DNA from: Microtetraspora sp. NBRC 16547
GTDB taxonomy: Bacteria > Actinomycetota > Actinomycetes > Streptosporangiales > Streptosporangiaceae
NCBI RefSeq assembly: GCF_030268965.1
Contig: NZ_BSSE01000004.1
Coordinates: 124,001 to 188,000 of the forward strand
Direction: 5' to 3'
Length of the DNA: 64,000 nucleotides
Shown here: positions 47,361 to 64,000 of the stretch, piece by piece
Numbering within the stretch: the stretch's first letter is position 1
Layout: each line of letters begins with the position of its first letter
Position numbers and translations under genes: made by a program
The notes under the pieces: model-generated
What the model was told of the DNA's origin: nothing
What the model saw: the letters and a program-made list of their open reading frames with translations, nothing else
The model's database searches: none

Positions 47361-48818
47361 GTGCAGGAGGGCGAGCTGGCGGCGGCGGCCGTGGGCGTGC
47401 CGGGGGGAGTGTCCGCGTCACCCGTCGCCCGGCCGCCGAGATGGGCCTCGCGGTACCGGTTCCACGCGGCCGTCGTCGACATCGCCTGCGCTCTCCTCGC
47501 TGGGACCGCCGCGGTCGCGGCCCGGTTCGGTGAGGTTACTCCGTACGTCGCCCCCTATGTCGTGCTGAGCGCGACGCTGCCGCTCCTGTGGGTGTGCTCG
47601 GTGGGGATCAACCGGGCGTACGAGCCGCGCCTGATCGGGGTGGGCTCGGAGGAGTTCCGGCGGATCGCGCAGTCCGGCTTCACGCTGACCGCCGCCGTCG
47701 CGATCGCCGCCTACGTGACGAAGACCGATGTGGCCCGCGGTTACGTGGTGCTCGCCCTCCCGGTGATGACGGTGCTCACCCTCTGCGGCAGGTACGGCCT
47801 GCGCCGCAGGCTGCACCGGCGCTGGGCGCGGGGCGGCTGCATGCGCAGGGTCGTCGCGGTCGGCCACCGGGCCGCGATCACGGACCTGACGCGGAGGTTC
47901 CGGCGCGAGCGCTACCACGGCATGGAGATCGTCGCCGCCTGCCTGCCGTACGACGCGTCGGGAGAGGTGGAGGGCGTGCCGGTGCTCGGCGACTTCACCG
48001 ATGTCCCTCTGGTGGTCGAGCAGGCGGGGGCGGACACGGTGGCGGTGCTGGCGTGTCCCGAGCTGGACGGCACGGCGCTGCGGCGGCTGGCGTGGCGGCT
48101 CGAGCGGAGCCGGACGGACCTGGTCGTCGCGCCCGCGTTGATGGAGGTGGCCGGGCCGCGGACCACGATCCGGCCGGTGGCGGGGCTGCCGTTGCTTCAC
48201 GTGGAACATCCGGAGCTGGCCGGTATCCGCCAGCTCATCAAGAACGTCTTCGACCGGGTGGTGGCGGGGGTGGCGCTCATCGCGCTGTCCCCGCTGCTCG
48301 CCGTCCTGGCGGTGGCCGTACGCGTGTCGAGCCCGGGGCCGGCGCTGTTCCGGCAGACGCGGGTCGGCAAGGACGGCGCGGAGTTCACCATCCTCAAGTT
48401 CCGCACGATGTGGCAGGACGCGGAGGCGCGGAAGGTCGATCTCGTCAGCGACGCGGGAGGGGTGCTGTTCAAGATCCGCCAGGATCCGCGGGTCACGCCG
48501 ATGGGAAGCTGGCTGCGCCGCCGCTCCCTTGACGAGCTGCCCCAATTGATCAACGTTGTGAAGGGGCACATGTCGCTCGTGGGGCCGCGTCCGCCGTTGC
48601 CGGAGGAGGTCGCGCGGTACCGTGACGACGTCCGCAGGCGGCTCGTGGTCCGCCCGGGCATGACAGGCCTGTGGCAGGTGAACGGGCGATCGGACCTGTC
48701 GTGGGAGGAATCGGTGCGGCTTGACCTGCGTTACGTCGAGAGCTGGTCTCTCATGCTGGATCTGCAGATCCTGTGGAAGACGTGGTCGGCCGTGATACGC
48801 GGGGCGGGAGCTTACTGA
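47361..48818 (+). CDS. Polyprenyl-phosphate sugar-1-phosphate transferase (EPS priming enzyme)
   Basis: A 485-residue WbaP/CpsE-type initiator that moves a sugar-1-phosphate from a nucleotide sugar onto undecaprenyl phosphate, the first step of a repeat unit. Four N-terminal helices and a CoA-binding-like middle domain (RRVVAVGHRAAITDLTRRFR) precede the membrane hairpin (VVAGVALIALSPLLAVLAVA). The catalytic domain has RQTRVGKDGAEFTILKFRTM, SWLRRRSLDELPQLINVVKG, SLVGPRPPLPEEV and RPGMTGLWQVNGRSDLSWEE. It starts at GTG 47361 after GGGAGG. It opens the locus and abuts cysQ, whose ATG follows its stop directly. Confidence 0.92.
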   Translation: MQEGELAAAAVGVPGGVSASPVARPPRWASRYRFHAAVVDIACALLAGTAAVAARFGEVTPYVAPYVVLSATLPLLWVCSVGINRAYEPRLIGVGSEEFRRIAQSGFTLTAAVAIAAYVTKTDVARGYVVLALPVMTVLTLCGRYGLRRRLHRRWARGGCMRRVVAVGHRAAITDLTRRFRRERYHGMEIVAACLPYDASGEVEGVPVLGDFTDVPLVVEQAGADTVAVLACPELDGTALRRLAWRLERSRTDLVVAPALMEVAGPRTTIRPVAGLPLLHVEHPELAGIRQLIKNVFDRVVAGVALIALSPLLAVLAVAVRVSSPGPALFRQTRVGKDGAEFTILKFRTMWQDAEARKVDLVSDAGGVLFKIRQDPRVTPMGSWLRRRSLDELPQLINVVKGHMSLVGPRPPLPEEVARYRDDVRRRLVVRPGMTGLWQVNGRSDLSWEESVRLDLRYVESWSLMLDLQILWKTWSAVIRGAGAY

Positions 48819-49580
48819 ATGGCGATGCGGGACGACCACACCCTGGCGGGCGAGCTGGCGACGGAGGCGGGCGAGCTGCTGCTGCGGCTCCGCGCCGAGC
48901 GCGGTTTCGCCGATCCGAAGGCGTTGAAGGACGCGGGAGACCGCGGGTCGCATGACCAGTTGATGGAGGCGCTCAGGCGGTTCCGGCCGGACGACAGCGT
49001 GCTGTCGGAGGAGGCCACGCGCGAGGAGCGGATGGATCCCCGGAGGCTGTCGGCCGAGCGGGTCTGGATCGTCGATCCCCTGGACGGCACCCGCGAGTTC
49101 GCCGAGGAGGGCAGGTCCGACTGGGCGGTCCACGTGGCCCTGTGGGAGCGCGGCGCGCTGACGGCGGGCGCCGTGGCGCTGCCGGCCCAGGGCAGGACGC
49201 TCACCACCGCCGAGCCGCCGCCGCTGCCCGACGCGCGAGGGCGCCTCCGGATCGCGGTCAGCCGGACCCGCCCGCCGGAGTTCGTGGAGAAGCTGGCACA
49301 GGAGCTGGGCGCCGAGCTGGTGCCGATCGGCTCGGCGGGCGCCAAGATCGCCGCGGTGCTGACGGGTGAGGTCGAGGCGTACGTTCACGCGGGTGGCCAG
49401 TACGAATGGGATTCCGCGGCTCCGGTCGCCGTGGCGCTCGCGGCGGGCGCTCACGCGAGCAGAATCGACGGCTCGCGGCTCGTGTACAACCAAGCCGACC
49501 CGTCACTGCCGGATATCCTGGTCTCCCTACCGGATCTGGCGACAAAGCTACTCGCCGGCATCCGTGACCTGCACCGTTAG
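48819..49580 (+). CDS. cysQ: 3'(2'),5'-bisphosphate nucleotidase, CysQ type
   Basis: Mg-dependent phosphatase (253 residues) of the inositol-monophosphatase superfamily. Motifs are DSVLSEEATREE, the metal site WIVDPLDGTREFAEEG (DPxDGT) and AYVHAGGQYEWDSAAPVAVA (WD). CysQ hydrolyses 3'-phosphoadenosine 5'-phosphate, the inhibitory by-product of PAPS-dependent sulfotransferases. Its ATG immediately follows the stop of the priming transferase and cysD starts 18 bp later. Position among cysDN and three sulfotransferases supports PAP rather than inositol phosphate as substrate. Confidence 0.85.
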   Translation: MAMRDDHTLAGELATEAGELLLRLRAERGFADPKALKDAGDRGSHDQLMEALRRFRPDDSVLSEEATREERMDPRRLSAERVWIVDPLDGTREFAEEGRSDWAVHVALWERGALTAGAVALPAQGRTLTTAEPPPLPDARGRLRIAVSRTRPPEFVEKLAQELGAELVPIGSAGAKIAAVLTGEVEAYVHAGGQYEWDSAAPVAVALAAGAHASRIDGSRLVYNQADPSLPDILVSLPDLATKLLAGIRDLHR

Positions 49581-49598
49581 CCCGTCGAAGGAATCCCT

Positions 49599-50513
49599 AT
49601 GCTTCAGCGCGACTATACGACGTCGCAGCTCGACGTCCTGGAGGCCGAGGCGATCCACATCATGCGTGAGGTCGCGGCGGAGTTCGAGCGCCCCTGTCTG
49701 CTGTTCTCCGGTGGTAAGGACTCCATCGTCATGCTCCGCATCGCGGAGAAGGCGTTCTGGCCGGCACCGATCCCGTTTCCCCTGATGCACGTGGACACGG
49801 GGCACAACTTCCCCGAGGTCATCGAGTTCCGCGACCGGCGGGCCGTCGAGCTGAACGCCCGGCTCGTGGTGGCCAGCGTGCAGGCCTCGATCGACTCGGG
49901 GCGCGTCGCTGAGGAGACCGGGCGGCGCGCTTCGCGTAACCGGCTGCAGACCACGACCCTGCTGGACGCCATCGAGGAGCACGAGTTCGACGCCGTGTTC
50001 GGCGGAGCCCGGCGGGACGAGGAGAAGGCCCGGGCCAAGGAGCGGGTCTTCTCCTTCCGTGACGACTTCGGCCAGTGGGATCCGAAGAACCAGCGCCCCG
50101 AGCTGTGGAACCTGTACAACTCGAAGATCCGCAAGGGTGAGCACATCCGCGTGTTCCCGCTGTCCAACTGGACCGAGCTGGACATCTGGGACTACATCCG
50201 GCGTGAGGGCATCGAGATCCCGTCCATCTACTTCGCGCACACCCGCAGCGTGTTCGAGCGGGACGGCATGCTGCTCCCGGACGACGAAGTGGTGCAGCGC
50301 GACGAGGACGAGCCGCTGTTCGAGGCCGTCGTCCGCTACCGCACGGTCGGTGACGTGACGTGCACCGGTGCCGTGGTGTCGAACGCCGTGACGGTCGAGC
50401 AGATCATCGAGGAGATCGCGGTGACGCGGCTCACCGAGCGCGGCGCGACGCGTGCCGACGACCGCGCCTCGGAGGCCGCGATGGAGGACCGCAAGAAGGA
50501 GGGCTACTTCTAA
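49599..50513 (+). CDS. cysD: Sulfate adenylyltransferase subunit 2
   Basis: A 304-residue ATP-pyrophosphatase-fold catalytic subunit forming adenosine 5'-phosphosulfate from sulfate and ATP. The PP-loop FSGGKDSIVMLRIA is intact, with LMHVDTGHNFPEVIEFRDRR, VFGGARRDEEKARAKERVFS and the C-terminal ENDP-type region GYF. The stop overlaps the cysN ATG (TAATG). AAGGAAT precedes the ATG at 49599. It feeds sulfate activation either for cysteine synthesis or, in this setting, for PAPS. Confidence 0.95.
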   Translation: MLQRDYTTSQLDVLEAEAIHIMREVAAEFERPCLLFSGGKDSIVMLRIAEKAFWPAPIPFPLMHVDTGHNFPEVIEFRDRRAVELNARLVVASVQASIDSGRVAEETGRRASRNRLQTTTLLDAIEEHEFDAVFGGARRDEEKARAKERVFSFRDDFGQWDPKNQRPELWNLYNSKIRKGEHIRVFPLSNWTELDIWDYIRREGIEIPSIYFAHTRSVFERDGMLLPDDEVVQRDEDEPLFEAVVRYRTVGDVTCTGAVVSNAVTVEQIIEEIAVTRLTERGATRADDRASEAAMEDRKKEGYF

Positions 50514-51775
50514 TGGACATCCTTCGTTTCGCCACCGCGGGCTCGGTCGACGACGGCAAGTCCACCCTGATCGGGCGGCTGCTGTTCGACTCCAAAGCCA
50601 TCTTCGAGGACCAGCTTGAGGCGGTCGAGCGGACGTCGCGCGACCGCGGCACCGAGTACACCGACCTGTCGCTGCTCACCGACGGCCTGCGCGCCGAGCG
50701 GGAGCAGGGCATCACGATCGACGTGGCGTACCGCTACTTCGCGACGCCCAAGCGGAAGTTCATCATCGCCGACACCCCGGGGCACATCCAGTACACCCGG
50801 AACATGGTCACCGGCGCGTCCACCGCCGACCTGGCGATCATCCTGATCGACGCGCGCAAGGGCGTTCTGGAGCAGTCGAGGCGGCACGCCTTCCTGACCA
50901 CGCTGCTGCGCGTGCCGCACCTGGTCCTCGCCGTGAACAAGATGGACCTGGTCGACTACGCCGAGGAGCGGTTCGAGGAGATCCGCGAGGAGTTCACCGC
51001 GTTCGCGTCGAAGCTGAACGCGGCGGACCTCACGTTCATCCCGATCTCGGCGCTGCACGGCGACAACGTGGTCTCCCGTTCGGAGAACATGCCGTGGTAC
51101 CACGGAACGTCGCTGCTGCACCACCTGGAGAACGTGCACATCGCCTCCGACCGGAACCTGGTCGACGTGCGCTTCCCCGTGCAGTACGTGATCAGGCCGC
51201 ACAACGCGACCAGCCAGGAGCTGCACGACTACCGCGGATACGCCGGCCAGGTGGCCGGTGGCGTGCTCAAGCCGGGCGACGAGGTCACGCACCTGCCGTC
51301 GGGGTTGAACACGCGGATCGCGGCGATCGACACGTTCGACGGCCCGGTCGAGGAGGCCTTCCCGCCCATGTCGGTCACCCTCCGGCTGGAGGACGACATC
51401 GACATCTCGCGAGGCGACCTGATCTGCCGGCCGAACAACCAGCCGAGCGTCGCGCAGGAACTCGACGCGATGGTCTGCTGGATGGCCGACTCGGTGAAGC
51501 TCCAGCCCCGGTCCAAGCTGATCATCAAGCACACGACGCGTACGGCACGGGCCTTGGTCAGGGACCTGCAGTACCGGCTGGACGTCAACACGCTGCACCG
51601 GGACGAGGCGGCGACGTCGCTGGGTCTGAACGAGATCGGCCGGGTGTCCCTGCGGATCACTCAGCCGTTGTTCGTCGACGACTATTCACGTAACCGGCTC
51701 ACCGGCGGGTTCATCCTCATCGACGAGGCGACGAACGGCACGGTCGGCGCCGGGATGATCGTCGACGCGAGGTAG
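50513..51775 (+). CDS. cysN: Sulfate adenylyltransferase subunit 1 (GTPase)
   Basis: EF-Tu-like GTPase (420 residues) that powers APS formation by CysD. G1 is GSVDDGKST, G3 DTPGHIQYTRNM and G4 NKMDLV. Beta-barrel domains II and III follow. It ends at GMIVDAR without a fused APS kinase; a separate cysC lies at the right edge of the window. Its start overlaps the cysD stop, and the frame upstream of ATG 50513 is shadow. Confidence 0.95.
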   Translation: MDILRFATAGSVDDGKSTLIGRLLFDSKAIFEDQLEAVERTSRDRGTEYTDLSLLTDGLRAEREQGITIDVAYRYFATPKRKFIIADTPGHIQYTRNMVTGASTADLAIILIDARKGVLEQSRRHAFLTTLLRVPHLVLAVNKMDLVDYAEERFEEIREEFTAFASKLNAADLTFIPISALHGDNVVSRSENMPWYHGTSLLHHLENVHIASDRNLVDVRFPVQYVIRPHNATSQELHDYRGYAGQVAGGVLKPGDEVTHLPSGLNTRIAAIDTFDGPVEEAFPPMSVTLRLEDDIDISRGDLICRPNNQPSVAQELDAMVCWMADSVKLQPRSKLIIKHTTRTARALVRDLQYRLDVNTLHRDEAATSLGLNEIGRVSLRITQPLFVDDYSRNRLTGGFILIDEATNGTVGAGMIVDAR

Positions 51776-51854: not shown

Positions 51855-52811
51855 GTGACTGACGCTCATCCGGTGATCTTCGTGGGTGGGCTCGGCCGCA
51901 GTGGCACCACATTGCTGGAGCGGCTGCTGGGCGAGCTCCCAGGAGTCGTGCCGCTCGGAGAGGTCGTCCATCTCTGGGCGCGCGGCATCCATGCCGACGA
52001 GCCGTGCGGATGCGGGGAGGCCTTCTCGCGGTGCCCTTTCTGGGGCAAGGTGGGCAATCTGGCCTTCGGGCGCTGGCAGGCGAGTGAGGCCGACCGCCTG
52101 CTCCGCCTGCGCGCCCGGGTGGACCGCACCCGCCGCGTCCCGCTCCTCGCCTTCGGCGGCGCGGGAGGCCCTGGGAGCGGCCGGCGCGCCGCCGACCTCG
52201 GCGCGTACGTCTCGACCTACGCCTCCGTCTACGCCGCGGCGGCCGAGGTGGCCGACGGGCACTGGGTGATCGACTCCAGCAAGCACGCCTCCCTGGCGCA
52301 CTGCCTGGCGGCGGTCGAGGGGACCCGGGAGCGCCTGCGGGTCGTGCATGTCGTCCGCGATCCGAGAGCGGTCGCCGCGTCCTGGCGCAGCGACGTGACC
52401 CGGCCGGAGGACGGTCGGCCGATGGCCCGCTGGGCGCCCGGACGGACGGCCGTCCACTGGCTCGTCCAGAACCTCGCCTTCGAGCTGCTGCGCAGGCGGG
52501 GCGTGTCCGTGGTCCGGATCCGGTACGAGGATCTGCTGCACAGCCCGGCCGAGACGCTGCGGGAGCTGGCCGCCGAGCTGCGGCTGCCGCGGGCGCGTGA
52601 CGCGCTGCTGTTCCTGGACGATCAGGAGGCGCTGCTCGGCGTGGCGCACACCGTGTCCGGCAATCCGATGCGGTTCGCCGTCGGGCGGGTGCGATTCAGC
52701 GAGCGCCGGCCCCCGCTGCCGCTCGTCCACCGGCTGCTGGTCACCGCGCTCACCTGGCCGCTGCTCCACCGGTACGGCTACCGCGTGGTGCCGCGGCCGG
52801 AGGCCCTGTGA
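51855..52811 (+). CDS. Sulfotransferase (first of three)
   Basis: PAPS-dependent transferase-like protein of 318 residues. The 5'-phosphosulfate loop is VIFVGGLGRSGTTLLERLLG and the 3'-phosphate element is RVVHVVRDPRAVAASWRSDV, as in the Sulfotransfer_3 group. CGCGEAFSRCPFWG gives a small cysteine cluster. No signal peptide is seen, so it should act in the cytosol on a lipid-linked or nucleotide-linked sugar before export. It starts at GTG 51855 after GGTGGAGG, 79 bp behind cysN, and overlaps the next glycosyltransferase start. The acceptor sugar is unknown. Confidence 0.87.
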   Translation: MTDAHPVIFVGGLGRSGTTLLERLLGELPGVVPLGEVVHLWARGIHADEPCGCGEAFSRCPFWGKVGNLAFGRWQASEADRLLRLRARVDRTRRVPLLAFGGAGGPGSGRRAADLGAYVSTYASVYAAAAEVADGHWVIDSSKHASLAHCLAAVEGTRERLRVVHVVRDPRAVAASWRSDVTRPEDGRPMARWAPGRTAVHWLVQNLAFELLRRRGVSVVRIRYEDLLHSPAETLRELAAELRLPRARDALLFLDDQEALLGVAHTVSGNPMRFAVGRVRFSERRPPLPLVHRLLVTALTWPLLHRYGYRVVPRPEAL

Positions 52812-53728
52812 TGAAGCCGTCCATGGGCATCGTGATCCCCACTCGGGGGGACCGGCCCGAGCTGCTCGCGGCGGCGGTGGCGGGCGCGCTCGATCAGGAG
52901 TACGGCCGGCGGATCCAGGTCGTCGTGGTGGTCGACGGCGGCGACGATGTCACCGGACCGGCCGAGCAGATCGCCGACGTGGTGGCGGCGACGCGGGGGA
53001 GCGTCCGGGTGATCCCCAACCGGGGCACGCCCGGGCTGCCGGGCGCCCGTAACACCGGCATCGATGAGCTGGACACCGATCTGGTGGCGTTCTGCGACGA
53101 CGACGACCTGTGGCTGCCCGGCAAGCTCGCCGCCCAGGTGGAGGCGCTGGCCGAGGAGCCGGAGGCCGACTTCGCGAGCTGCTCGATCGAGGTGGAGTAC
53201 GGCTCCCGCCGGGTGGCCCGGCTGGCCGGGGTCGAGCGGGTGACCCGAGCCGACCTCACCAGGTCGCGGATGGTGATGGTGCACTCCTCGACCTTCCTCT
53301 TCCGTACGGCCGCGGCCTACCGCGTTGACGAGAGCGCTCCGGGCGGGCAGAACGAGGACTGGGATCTCGCGCTGCGCGCGGCGGGGCGGCATCCGATCGT
53401 GCACGTCGACCGGCCGCTCGTCCGAGTGCGCTGGGGCGGCTCCGGATACGCCACGAGGTGGGCGGACCGGATCGCCGGGCTGGAGTGGATGCTGGCCAGG
53501 CACGCCGACCTGGAGACGGACCCGCGCGGCGCCGCCCGGATCTACGGCCAGATGGCGTTCCACCACGCCGCCCTCGGACACCGCAGGGACGCCGGCCGGT
53601 GGGCGTGGAAGGCGTTCTCCGCGCACCGTGGCGAGCCGCGCGCCGCCGTGGCGCTCGCGGTCGCCACCGGCCTCGTGTCCGCGCACACGGTGCTCGGCCT
53701 GCTGCACACGCGCGGCCGGGGCATCTGA
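52808..53728 (+). CDS. Family 2 glycosyltransferase
   Basis: About 306 residues. A GT-A domain begins with GIVIPTRGDRPELLAAAVAG and VVVVDGGDDVTG. The metal-binding triad FCDDDDLWLPGKLAAQV and the catalytic-base region QNEDWDLALRAAGRHPIVHV (ED) mark the GT2 family. There is no membrane segment until a weak C-terminal hydrophobic stretch. It probably adds a sugar to the lipid-linked repeat. GTG 52808 overlaps the sulfotransferase stop; ATG 52811 is an equally plausible start. The stop overlaps the GT26 ATG. Confidence 0.88.
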   Translation: MMKPSMGIVIPTRGDRPELLAAAVAGALDQEYGRRIQVVVVVDGGDDVTGPAEQIADVVAATRGSVRVIPNRGTPGLPGARNTGIDELDTDLVAFCDDDDLWLPGKLAAQVEALAEEPEADFASCSIEVEYGSRRVARLAGVERVTRADLTRSRMVMVHSSTFLFRTAAAYRVDESAPGGQNEDWDLALRAAGRHPIVHVDRPLVRVRWGGSGYATRWADRIAGLEWMLARHADLETDPRGAARIYGQMAFHHAALGHRRDAGRWAWKAFSAHRGEPRAAVALAVATGLVSAHTVLGLLHTRGRGI

Positions 53729-54624
53729 TGCGGCCGGGGCAGGCGACGCGGCCAGTGCGGGTGACGCGGCCGGTGCAGGTGACGCGGCCAGGGCAGGTGA
53801 CGCGGCCAGGGCAGGCGACGCGGGCCCGGGTTCCGGTCGCCGGAGTCGAGCTGGATCCGCTCACCGAGGACGAGGTCGTGACGCGGGTGTTCGAGGCCCT
53901 GCGCCGTGGCCGGGGCGGCCATGTGCTCACCCCGAACGTCGACATCTGCCGGTTGGCCGTGCGCGACGCCGAACTGCGCGCACTGGTACGGCGGGCCGAC
54001 GTCGCCGTGGCGGACGGCATGCCGCTCGTATGGGCGGCGCGGATGCTCGGCACGCCCCTCCCCGGGAGGGTGACCGGCGCCGATCTGATCTGGGCGCTGT
54101 CGGAGGCGGCGGCGCGCCACGGCGTGCCGGTCTACCTGCTTGGCGGCCCAGCCGGGGTGGCCGACGCGGCCGCGGTGACGCTGTGCGCGCGCTATCCGCG
54201 CCTCGTGGTGGCCGGGACGCACAGCCCACCCTACGGGTTCGAGTCCTCCCCCGACGGGGTGGCCGCGATCAGGGACGCCCTGCTCGCCGCGATGCCCGGG
54301 CTGGTCTTCGTCGGGCTGGGCTTCCCCAAGCAGGACCGCCTGATCGAGGTCCTGCGCGCCGACCTGCCCGGGACGTGGTTCGTCGGCTGCGGCTCCGCCA
54401 TCGCCTTCGCCGCCGGTGCCGTACGGCGTGCGCCGGAATGGATGCGCGGCGTGGGCCTGGAGTGGCTGTTCCGGCTGCTGTCCGAGCCGGGCCGGTTGGG
54501 GCGCCGCTATCTCGTGGACGATCTGCCCTTCGCCCTACGGCTGCTCGCCGGTGGCCTGTTCAGGCGCGGGGTCAGCGCGGAGCCGACGTCAGCTCGCGTA
54601 TCCGAGACACCTCGCCAGGGGTGA
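53728..54624 (+). CDS. WecB/TagA/CpsF-family glycosyltransferase (GT26)
   Basis: The folded part (about 35-280) shows GT26 signatures: GHVLTPNVDICRLAVRDAEL, DVAVADGMPLVWAARMLG, RVTGADLIWALSEAAARHG, VYLLGGPAGVADAAA and VFVGLGFPKQDRLIEVL. These enzymes transfer N-acetylmannosamine, mannosaminuronate or glucuronate to lipid-linked acceptors. The first 32 residues are five copies of a six-residue repeat (RPGQAT, RPVRVT and variants) encoded by an 18-bp tandem repeat, absent from usual family members. The true start might be a GTG within the repeat. The 3' end overlaps the convergent sulfotransferase gene by 53 bp. Confidence 0.88.
   Translation: MRPGQATRPVRVTRPVQVTRPGQVTRPGQATRARVPVAGVELDPLTEDEVVTRVFEALRRGRGGHVLTPNVDICRLAVRDAELRALVRRADVAVADGMPLVWAARMLGTPLPGRVTGADLIWALSEAAARHGVPVYLLGGPAGVADAAAVTLCARYPRLVVAGTHSPPYGFESSPDGVAAIRDALLAAMPGLVFVGLGFPKQDRLIEVLRADLPGTWFVGCGSAIAFAAGAVRRAPEWMRGVGLEWLFRLLSEPGRLGRRYLVDDLPFALRLLAGGLFRRGVSAEPTSARVSETPRQG
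53731..53820. repeat. Five tandem 18-bp repeats at the start of the GT26 gene
   Basis: Units of the form CGGCCAGGGCAGGTGACG run head to tail directly after the ATG with only a few substitutions. The period keeps the frame, so copy-number changes would alter the length of the N-terminal extension. Confidence 0.85.
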
Positions 54625-56868: not shown

Positions 56869-57746
56869 CGGCGTGCGTCCTGGCCGCCGCCCGACCGCCA
56901 GGACGGCTCGGCGCCCAGCCACGGCGTGAGCAGGGCGTCCCAGGGGGCGAAGTGCTCGGCCAGGCGGCGCCGTACCGAGACGGGCATGTCCGCGGTGCGC
57001 GGCTGGGCGTTGTGCCGCTCGAAGACGGGGTTCCCGAGCCTGGGCAGGCCGAGGAACTCGAGGACCCGATCGTAGGCGGGCCGCGGGTCGCGGAAGAACG
57101 CGCCGCTGTCCAGCACGAGCACGTGGTCGCGCCCGACGAGCAGTTCGAGGCGGGCGAGCTGCTCGGCGTACCGGCCCCGCGCGACGTAGGCGTGGTGCCG
57201 ATGGGCGTGGCTGGCCGAGTGGGGGGAGACCCGCAGGCGGTGCGCCTCACCGGCGAGGCGCTCCTCCTCCAGCTCCAGGGCGCGTTCGAACGACTGCTCG
57301 GTCTCGAAGCCGCGGGCCAGCTCGTGCGCGTGGGCGGAGTAGGCGCGCTCCACCGGGTCCCTGACCAGCACGATCAGCTTGGCCCCGGGCAGGTCCCACG
57401 CGATCCGCGCCGGGGCGAGCGGGTGGAACAGGTAGTACGGCGACGACTCGAACGCCTGCGCCTGGTGGCCGTGCCGGCGTTCCAGCCGCCGGGCCGCGGC
57501 CTTTCGGGGAAAGTGCGCCTGGTACCAGGTCAGACCCTTCGCGTACGCCATGTCGAAGTAGTGCACGCCCTTGTGCAGCACCGGCTTCATGATCAGCGGA
57601 TGCTGGGAGAGCGCGCGGTACAGCGACGTGGTGCCGCACCGCTGCGCGCCGATGATGAGGAACGACGGCAGCATCCTGCCCCCCACGGTGAGCCTGCCCG
57701 TGGTCAAGGAGACGGCGTGCGCCGAGCGCTTGAGGGTGGACTTCAC
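56865..57746 (-). CDS. Sulfotransferase (third of three, heparan-type)
   Basis: 293 residues resembling the N- and O-sulfotransferases of glycosaminoglycans (Sulfotransfer_1). PAPS sites: LPSFLIIGAQRCGTTSLYRA and AKLIVLVRDPVERAYSAHAH. A substrate-side segment HKGVHYFDMAYAKGLTWYQA follows the common 'KExhyF' pattern, with the catalytic-type basic residue before HYFD. LDSGAFFRDPRPAYDRVLEF and a PMPxxxRxxLxxxF-like C-terminal signature (SVRRRLAEHFAPWDALL) complete the family. It starts at GTG 57746, overlapping the kinase stop. Of the three it is the most clearly a polysaccharide sulfotransferase. Confidence 0.9.
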   Translation of the reverse strand: MKSTLKRSAHAVSLTTGRLTVGGRMLPSFLIIGAQRCGTTSLYRALSQHPLIMKPVLHKGVHYFDMAYAKGLTWYQAHFPRKAAARRLERRHGHQAQAFESSPYYLFHPLAPARIAWDLPGAKLIVLVRDPVERAYSAHAHELARGFETEQSFERALELEEERLAGEAHRLRVSPHSASHAHRHHAYVARGRYAEQLARLELLVGRDHVLVLDSGAFFRDPRPAYDRVLEFLGLPRLGNPVFERHNAQPRTADMPVSVRRRLAEHFAPWDALLTPWLGAEPSWRSGGGQDARR

Positions 57747-58648
57747 AGCAGGGGCTCCAGGTGGTCGACGAGTGGGTTGAGCCAGGTCGAGGCTGGTCCG
57801 AGCGGTTCGTGGCCGTCTCGGTCGTGCCGGTCGGCGAGCGTGATCAGGTACTGCGCGGCGGTGCGCCTGGCCTCCGCGGCCGAGAGCCCGAACGGCGCCA
57901 GTAGCGGGACGGCCTGGGCCAGGCAGGCGCGCGTGGCGCTCACCGGGCCCATGCGCTTGAGGACCCGGTGCAGGAAGTGGTGCAGCGCGTCGAAGCCGAG
58001 GGGAACGCCGGTGCCGAACCGTTCCCAGTCCCAGACGAGGAGCCGCCCGTCCGCACCGGGTGCGATGTTCCACGGCGCGAAGTCTCCGTGCCAGGCGCAT
58101 GCGCCGAGGGAGGCGATCTCGGCTACGGCGGCGGTGAGCAGGCCGGACGGGACCGCCGCCGAGGTGGTCGGCAGCGGTGACACGACCAGCACGTCCAGGT
58201 CGTGCCAGAGGCCGTGGTGCAGCACGACGGGCACCGAGATCGTCTTCAGCGTCCGGTCGGCCAGCATGCGCAGGGTGGCGCTCTCATGCCGGACCAGCTC
58301 GCGGGCCCGCGCCGAATCCCCGATCTTGACGAAGCCGAGCAGGCCGTCCGTGCCGTGCGCGGACAGGATCGGCTTGCGGTTGGCCCGGCGGGCGGGCCGT
58401 ACGTGCAGCACCGTGCGGACGTGCCGGCCGAACACCTCGCTGAGGTACGTCTCGATGGTGTCGGGGCCGTCGGGCACCAGGAGCCGCCCGCCGCGCCCGA
58501 GAACGGAGTGCCAGCGGGTACGCGGCACGAGCCGCCGGGGGACGAGGCGATGCGGGAGCACCGTCCTCGGCCTCGTGGTCGCGGACGGCGGGTAGAGCAG
58601 GCCGATCACCTCGTGGAGGTAGCGCAGCCGGGCCCTGGCGTCACCCAT
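57743..58648 (-). CDS. Aminoglycoside-phosphotransferase-like kinase in EPS operon
   Basis: 301 residues with an APH/choline-kinase-like fold: catalytic loop ACAWHGDFAPWNIAPGADGR and metal-binding LLVWDWERFGTG. The N-lobe is divergent (LLGFVKIGDSARARELVRHE). APH-type kinases phosphorylate hydroxyls of sugars, aminoglycosides or choline. Within an exopolysaccharide operon, phosphorylation of a sugar or precursor is more likely than antibiotic resistance. The ATG overlaps the end of the polymerase gene by eight bases, and its stop overlaps the third sulfotransferase start. It is the most enigmatic member of the operon. Confidence 0.78.
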   Translation of the reverse strand: MGDARARLRYLHEVIGLLYPPSATTRPRTVLPHRLVPRRLVPRTRWHSVLGRGGRLLVPDGPDTIETYLSEVFGRHVRTVLHVRPARRANRKPILSAHGTDGLLGFVKIGDSARARELVRHESATLRMLADRTLKTISVPVVLHHGLWHDLDVLVVSPLPTTSAAVPSGLLTAAVAEIASLGACAWHGDFAPWNIAPGADGRLLVWDWERFGTGVPLGFDALHHFLHRVLKRMGPVSATRACLAQAVPLLAPFGLSAAEARRTAAQYLITLADRHDRDGHEPLGPASTWLNPLVDHLEPLL

Positions 58649-60131
58649 GCGCCCACCTCGCGTTTCCGGGTGCCTGGTTCCGCGCCGAATGCTGTGCCGG
58701 ATGCGGTGCCGGATGCGGCGCTGAATGCGGTGCCGGATGCGGCGCTGAATGCGGCGCTGAATGCGGTGCAGGATGCGGTGCCGGATACCGGGCCGAATGC
58801 CGGGCCGAATGCTGTGCCGAATGCCGGGCCGGACGCGGTGCCTGCCGCCGTGCCGGCTGCCGGTCCGGGAACTGGGCCGAGTTGCGCCAGAGCAGGGCGA
58901 AGGAGATCAGGTAGAGGCTCAGCGCGCTCACCAGGCCGTCGTAGATGAACATGTAGAAGAGCACGAGGATCATGACGAGCGTCCCGGCCTTCCCGATCGG
59001 CGACCGGTCGTGCCAGTAGCGCCGTAGGGCGCCCAGGAAGAACCCGACGTACAGCGCCGCGCCGGCGAAGCCCTGCGTGATGAGCGTCAGCCACAGCTGG
59101 CCGTCGCTGCCGAGCGGGGGGTGGCCGCAGGTCGGGCACCACTCGGTCTTGCCCGTCGTGATCGTGGAGTAGTTGCCGTACGCGTTGCGCGTGTTGCCGT
59201 AGCCGATGACCGGCGATGAGGTGGTGGCCTGGATGGTGGACGTCATGGTGAAGGCCCGGATGTTGTTGCTGTGCGGATTGTCCAGCCGCTGGCCCACGAT
59301 CCCGCTGAGCGGGGACAGCAGCAGCGCCGTGCCGGCGAGGACGACGGCCGTGCCGACCACGAGGGGCCGGCCGCGGAAGGCGAGGTACGCCGCGGACAGC
59401 CCGAGCCCGATCCACAGGCCGCGGTTGAGCGAGTACACGATGGGGATCGCCGCCACGGGGAGCAGCACGGCGACGGCCACGCGCCGCAACGGCCCGCCGT
59501 ACGTCCACCAGCCGACCACGAACCAGACGAGCAGCACGGAGATGTTGCTGCCCCAGGCGTTGGCCCACTCGAACGGCGCCTCGGGCCGCGGCGAGGCGTG
59601 CCCGAGCACGTGCTGCATCTGCGCCGCGGTCGGGTGGATGAGGTTCTTGACGAAGGAGTTCCCGCCGAGCCAGTCCGGAAGCAGCATCTCGACCGGCGCG
59701 GTGAACTGGAATCCGGGGGCGAGCACGCCGAGCAGCCCGCCCGCCACGGTGGTGATGAAGAGCACGCCGAGGAGGCGGACGAGGGTCAGCTGCGGAAGCT
59801 CGTCGAGGGTGAGGTTGCCCAGGTAGAGCACCATGACGGCGAGCGCGGCGTAGACGGCGAACCGCATCAGATAGCCGAGGACCCGGCCCGTGGACAGGTC
59901 GCCGTACGTGCCGGGAGGGTTCTCGGCCAGCATCAGCGCGCTGATCGCGTATCCGGCGAGGAGCAGCACCCACAACCCCATGCCCGTCGGCACCTTGATC
60001 GGCCGCCTGCGCCACAGCACCACCGCCATCGGCACCGCGACGACGACGATCGAGAGCCCGCCCAGGCCGAGCGCCCACCAGATCGGATAGCCGGCGAGCA
60101 GGGCGGCGATGGGCCACACCGCGGGTCTCAT
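58641..60131 (-). CDS. Wzy-type O-antigen/EPS polymerase
   Basis: A 496-residue polytopic protein with about 11-12 helices and a large extracytoplasmic loop (about 270-345) containing NPHSNNIRAFTMTSTIQATT and GYGNTRNAYGNYST. The RGLWIGLGLSAAYLAFRGRP segment is typical of Wzy_C/O-antigen ligase proteins. It would polymerise repeat units on the outer face. Beyond residue 435 is a tail of about 12 four-residue units (HPAP, HSAP, HSAR), very rich in His, Ala and Pro, encoded by a 12-bp tandem repeat. The ATG overlaps the Wzz stop (ATGA). Confidence 0.85.
   Translation of the reverse strand: MRPAVWPIAALLAGYPIWWALGLGGLSIVVVAVPMAVVLWRRRPIKVPTGMGLWVLLLAGYAISALMLAENPPGTYGDLSTGRVLGYLMRFAVYAALAVMVLYLGNLTLDELPQLTLVRLLGVLFITTVAGGLLGVLAPGFQFTAPVEMLLPDWLGGNSFVKNLIHPTAAQMQHVLGHASPRPEAPFEWANAWGSNISVLLVWFVVGWWTYGGPLRRVAVAVLLPVAAIPIVYSLNRGLWIGLGLSAAYLAFRGRPLVVGTAVVLAGTALLLSPLSGIVGQRLDNPHSNNIRAFTMTSTIQATTSSPVIGYGNTRNAYGNYSTITTGKTEWCPTCGHPPLGSDGQLWLTLITQGFAGAALYVGFFLGALRRYWHDRSPIGKAGTLVMILVLFYMFIYDGLVSALSLYLISFALLWRNSAQFPDRQPARRQAPRPARHSAQHSARHSARYPAPHPAPHSAPHSAPHPAPHSAPHPAPHPAQHSARNQAPGNARWAHG
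58686..58845. repeat. 12-bp tandem repeat in the 3' end of the Wzy gene
   Basis: Degenerate units GCGGTGCCGGAT / GCGGCGCTGAAT run head to tail for about 13 copies. They encode a His-Ala-Pro/Ser tail on the minus strand. The period is in frame. Confidence 0.85.
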
Positions 60132-61345
60132 GCGGTCTGCTTCATCGAGCGCGTCGACATGGGGAGCGTGGGCGGCACGGTGACCGCGCCGAGCACGGTC
60201 GTGCCCTGCCGGGCAAGCCGGCGTACGGTCTGGGCCACCTCGGTGGAGGTGGTCCGGCGCAGGCCGAGGAGCAGGACGGCCGCGTCAGGGCGGTCCGCGG
60301 GGTCGGTGACGACGGCGACCGGCGCCAGGTGGGAGAGCGCGGCGCCGAGGCGTTCCGCGACCGGCCCGCCGGCGACCGTGCCGAGTTCGGCGACCAGCAG
60401 CCGGTGGTATCCCTCGCCGAGTGAGGCGACCACGCCGGCCGCCAGCCCGCGGAAGGCCGCGGGGTCGGCCCGGAGCGGGATGTCGGCGAGCAGCGGGAGC
60501 GTGGTGAGGCGCTCGACGTCCGCGGCGGCGCGCAGCCGGGTGTCCAGGCGGTCCCGGCTGAACGCGGCCCCCGCACCGGCGAGCAGGCCGAGGAAGAGGC
60601 CGCTGCCGAGGTACATCGGGACGCTCGGCGCGCTGGGGGCCGACGGGGGACGCGCCTGGCTGATGACGGAGCCGGGAACGATCGCGATGGTCTTGAGCGC
60701 GTTGTACTTGAGGCTGAGGCTGTACACCTGCCGGCCGAGCACGGACTGCTGGTGCTCGGCGACCATGCGCGCCGCGGTGCCGCGCGCGAGCGTGGCGACG
60801 TTCTCGGTCGCCTTGCCGAGCTCGCCGTCCACCTCGTGCAGCTGGGCGGACAGCACCTTCATCTGTACGGCGAGGGTTCGGGTCGCCGACAGCGAGCGGT
60901 TCTGGAGGTACGCCTCGGCGAACGCCTGGGCTCCTGCCGCGGCCGAAATGGGGTCGCCGGCGGTGAACCAGATGGAGAGGACCGCGGAATTCGGCGGCAC
61001 GTCCACGATGGCGTGTTCCCGCAATTCCTCCGAGTCGGGCTTTTTCAAAATTTCGGCGGCTTTGGAGGCGACTGTCGCGGAGTGGGCGATTTGCGCCTCT
61101 GTATCAAGATTGAGGGGTTCGCGCTGCCGCGAGGTGACCTGGTTGGCCTGATCCTGAATGCCGGTCGGGAAAACCTGTACCTGCGCGACCGCCGCGTATT
61201 CCTTGGGTGTCACCACCAGCAGTGCGACGCCGCCCGCGATGCCAATGAGCAGGCATGACGCGACGAGCAGCCGACGGCGGCGGAGAACCGAACCGTAGTC
61301 GGCGAGATCCCTGGTGTGCGGTGGCGGAAAAGAAGATCTCACCAT
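60128..61345 (-). CDS. Wzz/YveK-type polysaccharide co-polymerase
   Basis: 405 residues. Helix 1 (about 27-46, LVASCLLIGIAGGVALLVVT) and helix 2 (about 235-255) bracket a helical extracytoplasmic domain, the Wzz arrangement that sets chain length. The C-terminal cytosolic domain (RLRAAADVERLTTLPLLADI) resembles the BY-kinase domain usually fused to or partnered with YveK proteins, but no Walker A is visible. It is therefore probably a degenerate kinase-like regulatory domain. It is the first gene of the minus-strand EPS operon; the AT-rich stretch upstream (61346-61534) is shared with the divergent GH26-like gene and probably holds both promoters. Confidence 0.85.
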   Translation of the reverse strand: MVRSSFPPPHTRDLADYGSVLRRRRLLVASCLLIGIAGGVALLVVTPKEYAAVAQVQVFPTGIQDQANQVTSRQREPLNLDTEAQIAHSATVASKAAEILKKPDSEELREHAIVDVPPNSAVLSIWFTAGDPISAAAGAQAFAEAYLQNRSLSATRTLAVQMKVLSAQLHEVDGELGKATENVATLARGTAARMVAEHQQSVLGRQVYSLSLKYNALKTIAIVPGSVISQARPPSAPSAPSVPMYLGSGLFLGLLAGAGAAFSRDRLDTRLRAAADVERLTTLPLLADIPLRADPAAFRGLAAGVVASLGEGYHRLLVAELGTVAGGPVAERLGAALSHLAPVAVVTDPADRPDAAVLLLGLRRTTSTEVAQTVRRLARQGTTVLGAVTVPPTLPMSTRSMKQTA

Positions 61346-61534
61346 GTACCCGAACTATAGGCGGGGTTGTGGTTTTCCCCATCGGATATTGAAAGATTTT
61401 CTTCCGCCGAATCGCGCCGCAATAGCGATCATTAATGCGAAATGTCCGATGGTGCGATATCACAAAGTTCCGCTCGGTCTTCCCTTGAGTAATGGCAAGG
61501 TTGCCCCCAAGGTCGTTCAAACAAAGGGGGAAAC

Positions 61535-62575
61535 GTGCGGCGAACAGCGCTGATCGGACTGGCGGGACTGCTGGCGGGGTGCGCTCCCGCGCCGAGCACT
61601 CCGATGCAGGGCGTACGGACCGACCTGGAGAGCAGGCTCGGCACGCGTGGCGCGATGTCCTGCACGGTCACCGCCAAACTCATCCCGAGCTGCGGGGCGT
61701 GGTGGGGCATCGCCCCCGACATCTTCACGGGCCGGCGCGTGGACGAGGCCACCGTGCGCGCCGAGCGACGGATGGGGCGCCGGGCCGACATCGTGCACGT
61801 CTACCACCGGGGCGAAGAGCTGTTCCCCACGCCCACGGAGCGTCGGGTCGCCGACGGACGACGGCTGTTACTGATCAACTGGAAGCCGTCCATGACCGTG
61901 AGCTGGGCCGACGTCGCGAACGGTGCGGTCGACCAGCGCATCGACACTCTCGCCGCGTACATCAAGCGGACCTTCCCCAGCCGGTTCTTCCTCACGATCC
62001 ACCACGAGCCGGAGAACGACGTCCGGCTGGACGGCGGCTACTCCGCGGAGGACTACGTCGCGATGTTCCGCCACGTGGTCACCCGGCTGCGCGGCAGGGG
62101 AGTGACCAACGCCGTCACCGTGATGACGTACATGGGGGCGCCCAACTGGGCCACCAAGCCGTGGTTCGACAAGCTCTATCCCGGCGACGACGTGGTCGAC
62201 TGGATCGGGATCGATCCGTACGCCGACGGGCGGGTGCACGACTTCGCCAGCCTGGTCAACAAGACCCGGCCCGACCACCCGCAGTGGCCGGGGTTCTACC
62301 GGTGGATGCAGTCGCGCTTCCCCGGAAAGCCGATCATGCTCTCCGAGTGGGGCGCCTTCGAACGGCCGCAGATGCCGCAGTTCAAGCCGGAGTTCTACGC
62401 CTCGGTCGCGCGCCAGATCAGCGAGTTCCCGCAGATCAAAGCCCTGGTGTACTTCGACTCCCCGGCGGCCCCGCGCGGCGACACGCGGTTCGACTCCACC
62501 GCCGCGGCGGACCGGGCGTTCTCCAGCCTGGCCGGCGGGCCGTACTTCAGCGGGACGCAGGTTCCCACGAGCTGA
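61535..62575 (+). CDS. GH26-like glycoside hydrolase lipoprotein
   Basis: 346 residues beginning with a lipoprotein signal, MRRTALIGLAGLLAGC, Cys16 lipidated. The (beta/alpha)8 catalytic domain shows clan GH-A landmarks: FFLTIHHEPENDVR (acid/base Glu158 or Glu160) and PIMLSEWGAFERPQ (nucleophile Glu), with VVDWIGIDPYADGR between. Mannanase-type GH26 enzymes share this layout, but the exact family is not certain. It would be tethered outside the membrane, suited to trimming or releasing the polysaccharide. GTG 61535 follows AAAGGGGG. It is divergent from the Wzz gene; its end overlaps the convergent exporter gene by 29 bp. Confidence 0.78.
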   Translation: MRRTALIGLAGLLAGCAPAPSTPMQGVRTDLESRLGTRGAMSCTVTAKLIPSCGAWWGIAPDIFTGRRVDEATVRAERRMGRRADIVHVYHRGEELFPTPTERRVADGRRLLLINWKPSMTVSWADVANGAVDQRIDTLAAYIKRTFPSRFFLTIHHEPENDVRLDGGYSAEDYVAMFRHVVTRLRGRGVTNAVTVMTYMGAPNWATKPWFDKLYPGDDVVDWIGIDPYADGRVHDFASLVNKTRPDHPQWPGFYRWMQSRFPGKPIMLSEWGAFERPQMPQFKPEFYASVARQISEFPQIKALVYFDSPAAPRGDTRFDSTAAADRAFSSLAGGPYFSGTQVPTS

Positions 62576-63449
62576 CCGGTCCGTCCTCTTCGGCGCGCGC
62601 CTTGGCCATCCGCCATCCGAAGGCGGCGGCGACGCCGAAGCAGGCGACGACGACCAGCAGGGCCACGTTGCCCACCCCGAGCAGCTTGAGGGCCGAGGCG
62701 AGGAGCGCGACGGCCAGTGCGAGCCGGATCACCTGGTCCGGCGCCCAGGTCGAGATCCGCGACCCGAGGTAGACCCCGGGAACCGACCCGAGCAGCAACG
62801 ACGCGGTGAGATCGAGCTTGAAGTCGCCGAACAGGATGTGTCCCACGGCCGCCGAGGCGACGAGCGGCACCGCCTGGACGAGGTCCGTGCCGACGAGCTG
62901 GTTGGCGCGCAGCGCGGGATACACCATGACCAGCGCGACGACGATGAGGGAACCGGACCCGACCGAGGTCACCCCCACGACCAGGCCGCCGACCATACCG
63001 ATCAGTACAGTCGGTATTGGGCGCACGGCGACATGCCGCGCGGAGATCGCGCCCTCCCCCTGGCGCAGGCTCAGCAGCGACTTCGCCAGCAGGCCGGCCA
63101 GCGCGAGCAGCAACGCGACTCCGAGCGCGTACTTGACGACCTGCTGCATCCGCTCGCCCTCGCCGAACAGTCGGGCGGCGAACACCCCGGCGAAGGCCAT
63201 GGGAACCGAGCCCACACACAGCCAGCCCACCATGCGCAGGTTCACCGTCCCCTTGCGCAGGTGCACCATGCCGCCGACCGGCTTCATGACCGCCGACGCC
63301 ACGAGATCGCTGGAGACCGCGGCGAGCGGCGGCACGTTGAAGAACAACATCATCATCGGCGTCATCAGGGCGCCGCCGCCCATTCCGGTCAGCCCGACGA
63401 TGATCGCCACCAGGAACGAACCCGTCACCAGGGCCGGATCGATCTCCAT
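62547..63449 (-). CDS. TauE/SafE-family sulfite/organosulfonate exporter
   Basis: A 300-residue membrane protein with eight to nine helices in two repeats. The family glycine motifs are AIIVGLTGMGGGALMTPMMM and MVGGLVVGVTSVGSGSLIVV. Family members export sulfite, sulfoacetate or related anions, or act in sulfur uptake. Its placement directly after the APS kinase gene on the same strand suggests handling of sulfur anions linked to PAPS metabolism. ATG 63449 lies 121 bp downstream of cysC across a repeat-containing spacer. Confidence 0.85.
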   Translation of the reverse strand: MEIDPALVTGSFLVAIIVGLTGMGGGALMTPMMMLFFNVPPLAAVSSDLVASAVMKPVGGMVHLRKGTVNLRMVGWLCVGSVPMAFAGVFAARLFGEGERMQQVVKYALGVALLLALAGLLAKSLLSLRQGEGAISARHVAVRPIPTVLIGMVGGLVVGVTSVGSGSLIVVALVMVYPALRANQLVGTDLVQAVPLVASAAVGHILFGDFKLDLTASLLLGSVPGVYLGSRISTWAPDQVIRLALAVALLASALKLLGVGNVALLVVVACFGVAAAFGWRMAKARAEEDGPVSSWEPASR

Positions 63450-63569
63450 TGGTCGCTCACCGCTCCTCGTTCACTGCGCGGATGACCTCGTTCCTCGGTC
63501 TTCCACTGCGTTCACTGTGTCGGGTTCGCTCCGGCTCCACTGGTCGCTCACCGCTCCTCGTTCACTGCG
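63450..63569. repeat. 29-bp direct repeat between cysC and the TauE-type gene
   Basis: TGGTCGCTCACCGCTCCTCG plus TTCACTGCG occurs identically at 63450-63478 and 63541-63569, 91 bp apart, with shorter related pieces between. Function is unknown. It may reflect slippage or duplication in the intercistronic spacer. Confidence 0.7.
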
Positions 63570-63570
63570 A

Positions 63571-64000
63571 TCAACGGATCCACCCTCCGGACGTCAGCAG
63601 GTTCAGAACGGCGGACACCGCCCGGTCCACGGACATGCCGGTGGTGTCCAGCGTCAGGTCGGCGTCCTCCGGTACCTCGTACGGGTCGGAGACGCCGGTG
63701 AACTCCGGGATGAGCCCGGCTCGGGCCCTGGCGTACAGGCCCTTGCGGTCGCGGCGTTCGCACTCCTCCAGCGGCGTGGAGACGTGGACGAGAAGGAAGT
63801 CGGCGCCGACCTCCTCGGCCATCGCACGCACCTCCTCCCGCGTCTCGGCGTACGGCGCGATGGGCGCGCAGATGGCGAGACCGCCGTGCCTGGCGACCTC
63901 GGCGGCGACGAAGCCGATCCGCCGGATGTTGTGGTCGCGGTCCTCGCGGGAGAACGTCAGCCCGGCGGACAGGAGCCGGCGCACGACGTCGCCGTCCAGG
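63571..64000 (-). CDS. cysC: Adenylylsulfate kinase, N-terminus beyond window
   Basis: 143 residues are visible and the frame is open to the right edge. The N-terminal Walker A loop is outside. APS-kinase signatures are LDGDVVRRLLSAGLTFSRED, NIRRIGFVAAEVARHGG, ICAPIAPYAETREEVRAM, FLLVHVSTPLEECERRDRKG and FTGVSDPYEVPEDADLTLDT. It phosphorylates APS to PAPS, the sulfate donor for sulfotransferases. Separate cysDN and cysC at opposite ends of the EPS genes bracket the three sulfotransferases. The stop is at 63571. Confidence 0.92.
   Translation of the reverse strand, partial: LDGDVVRRLLSAGLTFSREDRDHNIRRIGFVAAEVARHGGLAICAPIAPYAETREEVRAMAEEVGADFLLVHVSTPLEECERRDRKGLYARARAGLIPEFTGVSDPYEVPEDADLTLDTTGMSVDRAVSAVLNLLTSGGWIR

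Follow-up and report, generated by a model that had tools for sequence, protein, structure and literature searches.

A predicted sulfated-polysaccharide locus of Microtetraspora, probably the Streptosporangiaceae form of wps-1, beside the only sulfate-activation genes of the genome

Results

Gene content of the locus

We analysed positions 47361–64000 of a 64,000-nucleotide stretch of DNA from Microtetraspora sp. NBRC 16547 (the window, equivalent to positions 124001–188000 of contig 4 of a 7.8 Mb draft genome), where genes of a Wzx/Wzy-type polysaccharide pathway, three sulfotransferase genes and genes for sulfate activation lie together. We consider it likely, with a probability of roughly 0.8, that this locus directs the synthesis of a surface or extracellular polysaccharide via Wzx and Wzy, that its repeat unit is sulfated, an uncommon trait among bacteria, and that the locus is the Streptosporangiaceae form of the wps-1 system of Actinoplanes missouriensis (Tezuka & Ohnishi, June 2026; PMC13390465). 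Evidence for this reading includes a sulfotransferase gene near every close Wzy relative found in a survey of the class, and a gene order shared with wps-1. Domains were called by Pfam and NCBIfam profile searches with curated cut-offs, and several start codons, including those of the GT26, ST2 and wzx genes, are probable and not proven. In the list, APS stands for adenosine 5'-phosphosulfate, PAP for 3'-phosphoadenosine 5'-phosphate, GT for glycosyltransferase, ST for sulfotransferase and aa for amino acids.

47361..48818, plus strand: pgt, polyprenyl-phosphate sugar-phosphate transferase (priming), 485 aa; Bac_transf 9.4e-68, TIGR03025 416.7 bits (cut-off 295.55)
48819..49580, plus strand: cysQ-like PAP phosphatase, 253 aa; Inositol_P 2.1e-32, PDB 5djf E 1e-70, TIGR01331 below cut-off
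49599..50513, plus strand: cysD, ATP sulfurylase small subunit; TIGR02039 454.5 bits (cut-off 396.6)
50513..51775, plus strand: cysN, ATP sulfurylase GTPase subunit, its start overlapping the cysD end; TIGR02034 584.6 bits (cut-off 336.1)
51855..52811, plus strand: ST1 sulfotransferase, in the place of WpsB in the f37 layout (see below); Sulfotransfer_3 2.7e-16, conserved GRSG loop and RDP motif
52808..53728, plus strand: GT2 glycosyltransferase; Glycos_transf_2 2.4e-19
53728..54624, plus strand: GT26 (WecG/TagA/CpsF) glycosyltransferase; Glyco_tran_WecG 4.6e-54
54572..55585, minus strand: ST2 sulfotransferase; Sulfotransfer_3 1.1e-08
55582..56868, minus strand: wzx flippase (MATE-like); MatE 4.3e-06, barely over the cut-off (26.9 vs. 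24.9 bits)
56865..57746, minus strand: ST3 sulfotransferase, partner of Wzy across families; Sulfotransfer_1 2.7e-13, Sulfotransfer_3 3.6e-12
57743..58648, minus strand: kinase-fold gene, 301 aa, HGDFAPWN...VWDWER; assigned by predicted fold
58641..60131, minus strand: wzy polymerase (putative); assigned by relatives and place, close relatives lying near ST3
60128..61345, minus strand: wzz chain-length protein; Pfam Wzz 1.6e-08
61535..62575, plus strand: GH26-fold lipoprotein, lipobox LAGC; Pfam 20.2 of 20.2 bits, predicted fold
62547..63449, minus strand: TauE/SafE family exporter; TauE 2.7e-40
63571..64000, minus strand, the gene continuing to about 64845 outside the window: APS kinase C-terminal part of a 424-aa degenerate ATP sulfurylase/APS kinase fusion; APS_kinase 1.9e-56, PUA_2 8.5e-18

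The locus is flanked by pth and mfd and contains two convergent operons. The plus-strand operon runs pgt, cysQ, cysD, cysN, ST1, GT2, GT26, and the minus-strand operon, read from right to left, wzz, wzy, kinase, ST3, wzx, ST2; beyond wzz follow the GH26-like lipoprotein gene (plus) and the TauE and APS kinase fusion genes (both minus). An earlier interpretation of the bare letters (the sequence-only reading) had listed most of these genes. We recovered pgt, GT2, GT26, Wzx, Wzz and TauE by Pfam or NCBIfam and Wzy by context, and we confirmed the tight overlaps it mentioned; we see them, mostly of a few bases, in eight neighbouring pairs (cysD/cysN, ST1/GT2, GT2/GT26, ST2/wzx, wzx/ST3, ST3/kinase, kinase/wzy and wzy/wzz). 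The kinase-fold gene was absent from its list. The 3' ends of the convergent GT26 and ST2 genes overlap by 53 bases.

All three sulfotransferases, proposed earlier to be of the type dependent on 3'-phosphoadenosine 5'-phosphosulfate (PAPS), passed a Pfam sulfotransferase cut-off. They carry the motif pairs GRSG...RDPR (ST1), LPRSGTS...RDPVSFVGS (ST2) and QRCGTT...RDPVERAYS (ST3), which we take to be the 5'-phosphosulfate loop and the 3'-phosphate motif of PAPS-dependent sulfotransferases.

The priming transferase, flippase, polymerase and chain-length protein are all encoded together. Wzy matched no model in Pfam or NCBIfam, and its identity was assigned because of its hydrophobic sequence, its gene place and its relatives, one of which (in locus L259) shows a sub-threshold Wzy_C match. 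About 70 residues at its C-terminus (58641–58880, minus strand) form a tail enriched in His, Pro, Ala and Ser, with repeats such as HSAPHPAP.

The 301-residue kinase-fold protein likewise matched nothing in Pfam or NCBIfam; its relatives share the motifs WHGD....N and WER. Its predicted structure (predicted local distance difference test score, pLDDT, of 87) gave fructosamine-3-kinase and aminoglycoside phosphotransferases as best matches, at template-modelling scores of about 0.3 to 0.5, and the kinase part of WbdD was also among the matches, together with many protein kinases. From this model, we read the protein as a putative sugar kinase.

The GH26-like lipoprotein of the sequence-only reading reached its Pfam cut-off exactly, and the six best solved matches of its predicted fold (pLDDT 85.7) are GH26 lichenase entries (Foldseek E from 3.5e-20), followed lower in the list by mannanases and the exopolysaccharide hydrolase PslG. 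GH26 enzymes use two catalytic glutamates; among the relatives, E271 is invariant and E158 nearly so, being replaced in L079. The model supports the GH26 family fold, and polymer trimming would be a putative activity of the protein.

Conservation across the class and within the family

In a survey of 394 genomes of the class, relatives of Wzy (E<=1e-20) were detected in 77 genomes, of ST3 (E<=1e-30) in 96 and of ST1 (E<=1e-30) in 63. There were 81 Wzy matches, 58 of them strong (E<1e-80), and an ST3 gene lies within 15 kb of every strong one (58/58), across 11 families: 35 belong to the home family and 23 to ten others. ST1 occurs within 15 kb of 40 of these 58. In genomes of several Mb, any particular gene would seldom fall into a 30 kb neighbourhood by chance, and the proposed tie between the Wzx/Wzy pathway and sulfotransferases is borne out by this pairing.

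Outside Streptosporangiaceae, we looked closely at the large family f37, which we take to be Micromonosporaceae from the breadth of the sample (101 genomes, 44 genera, 3.5 to 14 Mb) and from the gene order. Wzy relatives were present in 77 of its 101 genomes, in 66 of them at E<1e-80. In all of the 20 inspected loci (from 19 genomes, all picked for a strong Wzy match), wzx, ST3, kinase, wzy and wzz lie side by side, and in 15 the APS kinase fusion falls inside the 20 kb stretch. Nine loci have the order GT2-ST1-GT26-...-GH26-...-wzx-ST3-kinase-wzy-wzz, followed by the fusion gene. Family f4, first considered as the possible Actinoplanes family, yielded no ST3 at E<=1e-30 in 101 genomes, although the identical query matched 96 of the 394 class genomes, and it is useful as a contrast only. 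Family f17 gave weak ST3-like matches in 11 loci; a pgt-like gene adjoins the one in L230, and the remaining ten stand without other genes of the set. As a separate observation in f17, locus L221 (genome G469, contig 69) holds matches to GT2 and Wzz together with an ST1 relative (E 3e-69).

Within Streptosporangiaceae, ST1 was found in 103 of 150 genomes (E<=1e-10), 96 of them at E<=1e-50, and the closest ST1 among named genomes come from Microtetraspora species. It follows cysN as the next searched gene in 40 of 40 inspected loci, which were chosen from ST1 hits and not at random. The usual left part is pgt-cysQ-cysD-cysN-ST1, with pgt matched over its last part only in L073, L075, L077, L080 and L081; the right part has at least two main layouts and was not seen within the stretch in several loci, e.g., L072, L080 and L081. 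We further compiled 80 loci of named genera (Microtetraspora, Herbidospora, Microbispora, Planotetraspora, Acrocarpospora, Streptosporangium, Nonomuraea and others), each with flanks of at most 10 kb. These contained GT2 (78), cysN (75), cysD and cysQ (73 each), pgt and GT26 (72 each), ST2 (63), wzx (62), ST3 (60), wzy and kinase (59 each), wzz (57), GH26 (43), TauE (17) and the APS kinase fusion (11), and the lower counts of the more distant genes are due, at least in part, to the limited length of the stretches. The test for co-conservation of the sulfotransferases with wzx/wzy/wzz and the cys genes, which the sequence-only reading had suggested, was positive. Some loci have the kinase-fold gene near cysN with no Wzy seen in the stretch, either alone (L253, L254), with GT2 (L244) or with ST3 (L250, L251).

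Sulfate activation

The sequence-only reading had assigned CysD, CysN, CysC and CysQ. The first two exceeded their cut-offs. The CysQ-like protein has a 3'-phosphoadenosine 5'-phosphate phosphatase (PDB 5djf) as best PDB relative, and it did not reach the cut-off of the CysQ equivalog model TIGR01331 (109.1 of 228.8 bits). The supposed CysC is an APS kinase, not as a plain CysC but as part of the fusion protein, which consists of a PUA-like domain, a stretch alignable with the ATP sulfurylase part of fusions of known structure and an intact APS kinase domain. NCBIfam PRK05537 scored 358.3 of 669 bits on it.

Neither sulfurylase motif, QxRNPxHR or GRDHA, is present in this protein: QTRNPMHR of PDB 2gks corresponds to TMRGPLDS, so that both motif histidines are gone, and about 130 residues are absent ahead of the kinase domain. 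The sulfurylase part is therefore degenerate and probably inactive. Among 37 fusion relatives from fetched loci, 33 span the first motif and four are cut or frame-shifted; the exact first motif occurs in none of the 33 and GRDHA in none either, under a strict pattern that PDB 3cr8 would fail as well. Eight of the 33, namely the window protein and its close relatives, have no histidine at the first motif. An f37 relative retains a partial PF01747 match, and with the fusion protein as query, genus g129 of f17 was matched by the APS kinase part alone, among the matches listed. A loss of sulfurylase function in the fusion proteins of other lineages is probable from these alignments. Because its sulfurylase motifs are lost, the window fusion should make PAPS only, with APS being supplied by CysDN.

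The genome has a single APS kinase, which is the fusion gene, one CysD and one CysH, and the Sat-type ATP sulfurylase PF01747 found no match in the whole genome; therefore, this cysDN pair must also feed cysteine synthesis. The cysH gene lies on contig 2, beside a NIR_SIR reductase gene and a CbiX-type gene. CysH carries CC and CxxC cysteines, which we take to be a feature of APS reductases. Its assignment as a clear APS reductase is weakened by the profile scores, with the PAPS reductase model PRK02090 over its cut-off (262.1 vs. 154) and the APS reductase model TIGR02055 just under (231.4 vs. 235.3).

In 71 of the 96 family genomes with ST1 at E<=1e-50 (this leaves out seven of the 103), an APS kinase gene is found no more than 30 kb from ST1 on the same contig. 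Loss of the APS kinase together with ST1, as expected of a private supply, is ruled out, with APS kinase present in 149 of 150 family genomes and ST1 in 103. The upstream neighbours of the locus are glmU, prs, rplY and pth, and a methyltransferase gene, mfd, a SurA-like gene, mazG and the enolase gene follow downstream, outside the window. The TauE/SafE gene adjoins the APS kinase fusion also in L257 and L258, where the stretch shows no polymer gene, and it seems to belong with the cys genes.

Comparison with wps-1

According to its printed description, wps-1 shares with the window a GT2, a sulfotransferase, a GT26, a GH26, Wzx, a second sulfotransferase, a kinase-like protein, Wzy and Wzz, as well as an adjacent gene of the sulfate adenylyltransferase/APS kinase family, AMIS_7390 (PMC13390465). 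The order wzx-sulfotransferase-kinase-wzy-wzz is the same in the window, in the f37 loci and in the wps-1 text, and the order of the nine f37 loci equals WpsA–C, E and G–K plus AMIS_7390. By its place, our kinase-fold gene corresponds to WpsI, called protein-kinase-like by the authors. The window differs from the described wps-1 in having pgt, cysQ, cysD, cysN and TauE in the locus and a third sulfotransferase; no DUF4262 match was obtained among the scanned window genes, and a methyltransferase gene lies beyond the fusion gene.

The authors assign wps-1 a role in sporangium matrix formation, with phenotypes from A. missouriensis only: as described, sporangia were squashed without WpsA, C, G, H, I, J or K, partly abnormal without WpsE or F and normal-looking without WpsD (PMC13390465). 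Deletion of the sulfotransferase WpsH led to severe sporangium defects, and so did deletion of AMIS_7390, which was "unexpected" to the authors, who place it in a family that forms APS for sulfur amino acids and are aware of no connection with morphology (PMC13390465). If AMIS_7390 resembles the f37 fusion proteins, its loss would starve two sulfotransferases of PAPS, which offers a possible explanation of this defect. The main text of that paper contains neither "PAPS" nor "cysD".

Other sulfotransferase genes of the genome

Two further regions of the same genome attracted attention. On contig 12 (85000–99000, L014), an ST3-like sulfotransferase gene (E 1e-74) lies beside genes for a GT4-type glycosyltransferase and a Wzy_C protein, adjoined by a 427-aa gene without Pfam match; this locus perhaps serves a second sulfated polymer. 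On contig 1 (362000–381000, L012), a tandem Sulfotransfer_3 pair (E 1.2e-45 and 1.9e-44) lies near two genes for GT2-Glyphos_transf fusions of the teichoic-acid type and one for a CDP-alcohol phosphotransferase, the region being a candidate for a sulfated teichoic acid-like polymer. Selenocysteine in ST1 relatives, considered because a single in-frame TGA or TAG codon was flagged in many of them, was rejected: in 20 of the flagged loci, the alignment overran the normal stop close to the end of the protein or there was no internal stop.

Discussion

Proposed pathway

We infer the catalytic steps as follows, together with sulfation of the product and a function at the surface of spores or aerial hyphae. 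CysDN would convert sulfate and ATP to APS, the degenerate-sulfurylase/APS kinase fusion would turn APS into PAPS, and the CysQ-like enzyme would clear the by-product PAP, as suggested by their domains and single-copy status. From the protein families and gene order, Pgt is predicted to load the first sugar phosphate onto the lipid carrier and GT2 and GT26 to extend the sugar unit. In the cytoplasm, ST1, ST2 and ST3 would sulfate the repeat unit from PAPS at up to three positions, and a sugar of this unit, or of its precursor, is probably the substrate of the kinase-fold protein. Wzx would then flip the unit, Wzy polymerise it and Wzz set the chain length, and the GH26-like lipoprotein may trim or release the polymer outside. 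The location and role of the polymer are proposed by analogy with A. missouriensis.

Weighing of the evidence

Several observations weigh against this proposal. Sulfate in the polymer is a prediction, if a strong one, both here and, with mutants, in A. missouriensis, and the link of the window to wps-1 is indirect, running through the printed gene order and f37. Loss of WpsB left sporangia normal in appearance, with about tenfold fewer released spores (PMC13390465). Only 8 of the 23 weaker Wzy matches (E>=1e-80) have ST3 within 15 kb, and the second main layout of the family (L049–L066) showed neither ST2 nor GT26. Neither cysDN nor the APS kinase, which is almost universal in the family, is diagnostic. 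The APS kinase lies on another contig than ST1 in 22 of the 96 genomes (three more gave no place), and in two of these 22, G091 and G115, each gene is located over 120 kb inside its contig, where the two are possibly unlinked. In G040 and G086, ST1, wzy and ST3 were all not found, and cysD, cysN, mfd and the fusion gene are together (L245, L246). The same four genes are kept in G132, G111, G018 and G016 (L248, L249, L252, L258), where ST1 was not found and the stretch shows no polymer gene. CysH may use PAPS, so that PAPS may serve cysteine synthesis too, and 25 of the 33 fusion proteins keep one histidine of the first sulfurylase motif. These last two points reduce the confidence both in the proposed pathway and in the wider interpretation given below.

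The fusion gene stands on the far side of mfd in most of the loci without polymer genes, and L258 has the order pth-cysQ-cysD-cysN-TauE-fusion-methyltransferase-mfd. Since cysDN and the fusion gene persist without polymer genes, the cys genes seem to form a general-purpose set for sulfate activation at a long-established site, at which the polymer genes were apparently inserted or from which they were lost. The notion of an "own PAPS supply" for the polymer is not supported: the set is the genome's only one and is kept near mfd in relatives lacking the polymer genes. Otherwise, the main idea of the sequence-only reading is probably right, with the qualifications that the PAPS supply is shared and that the prediction is not the first for an actinobacterium.

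The genera Microtetraspora and Nonomuraea are non-sporangiate, and Microtetraspora forms short spore chains. Because the locus also occurs in these genera, a role limited to sporangia is unlikely, and a sporangium matrix is not its general role. This leaves some room for the strongest competing explanation, in which the product is a capsule-like wall glycopolymer instead of a released spore or hypha matrix. Wzz and Wzy are compatible with both, and no ligase or attachment gene was identified. The authors of the A. missouriensis study, however, place wps-1 in sporangium matrix formation (PMC13390465), and we regard the wall glycopolymer as a real but lesser possibility.

It is improbable that the sulfotransferases act on a glycolipid, a wall polymer or a small molecule and not on the Wzx/Wzy polymer. 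Rhizobial and mycobacterial sulfotransferases are described as acting on lipo-oligosaccharides (PMC8205485), and L250 and L251 keep the kinase and ST3 genes with no Wzy found in the stretch, but the overlapping genes ST2-wzx-ST3-kinase-wzy-wzz and the pairing of ST3 with Wzy speak for the polymer as substrate. Equally improbable is plain sulfate assimilation beside an unrelated, unsulfated polysaccharide cluster, which would fit a sole activation set staying near mfd without polymer genes but leaves unexplained the sulfotransferases, found near strong Wzy relatives even at loci whose stretch showed neither cysD nor cysN, and the published AMIS_7390 mutant with its wps-1-type defect (PMC13390465).

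For sulfation of the Wzx/Wzy polymer, a wider interpretation comes close to an even chance without quite reaching it. Sulfated, perhaps also phosphorylated, polysaccharides may be an old and widespread trait of actinomycetes and not a cyanobacterial or marine speciality. They would be made by one Wzx/Wzy-sulfotransferase-kinase module, which in Streptosporangiaceae is physically linked to the sole sulfate-activation genes of the genome, and would give spores or aerial hyphae a glycosaminoglycan-like coat in 11 families or more, non-sporangiate genera among them; the degenerate sulfurylase may regulate or dock the PAPS-making enzyme. New in this work are the conservation of the gene set across 11 families of the class, the degenerate state of the sulfurylase part, the kinase not listed before and the possible explanation for AMIS_7390. 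The wps-1 idea is thereby widened from one strain to a testable rule for many named genera, PAPS starvation is offered as the reason for the AMIS_7390 phenotype, and soil bacteria become possible sources of heparin-like polymers. In a literature search of titles and abstract openings, only PMC13390465 dealt with such an actinomycete locus, and these searches gave no paper on sulfotransferases with Microtetraspora and none on such a locus in Streptosporangiaceae.

Comparison with other known systems

The bifunctional ATP sulfurylase-APS kinases PDB 2gks and 3cr8 resemble the window fusion in combining a sulfurylase-like N-terminal part with a C-terminal APS kinase, from which the window protein differs by the lost sulfurylase motif and the missing residues. 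Vibrio and Cobetia, whose capsules are compared below, are marine Gammaproteobacteria.

The xss cluster for synechan of Synechocystis PCC 6803 is described as a Wzx/Wzy system with a polysaccharide co-polymerase and two sulfotransferases, which is similar to the window (PMC8205485). It differs by its eight glycosyltransferases, its megaplasmid location and its own regulators, and sulfate was measured in synechan (PMC8205485). Neither "PAPS" nor "cysC" appears in the main text of that paper. The clusters for the sulfated capsules of Vibrio KMM 8419 and Cobetia marina KMM 1449 are, by their published description, like the window in combining sulfotransferase and PAPS-synthesis genes, with the difference that an ABC-transporter route is used; their sulfated structures were established by nuclear magnetic resonance (PMC11641403, PMC11766843). 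Passages of PMC8205485 (2021) and PMC13390465 (2026) call sulfated polysaccharides in bacteria a matter of cyanobacteria only, a view that is contradicted by these marine capsules (PMC11641403, PMC11766843).

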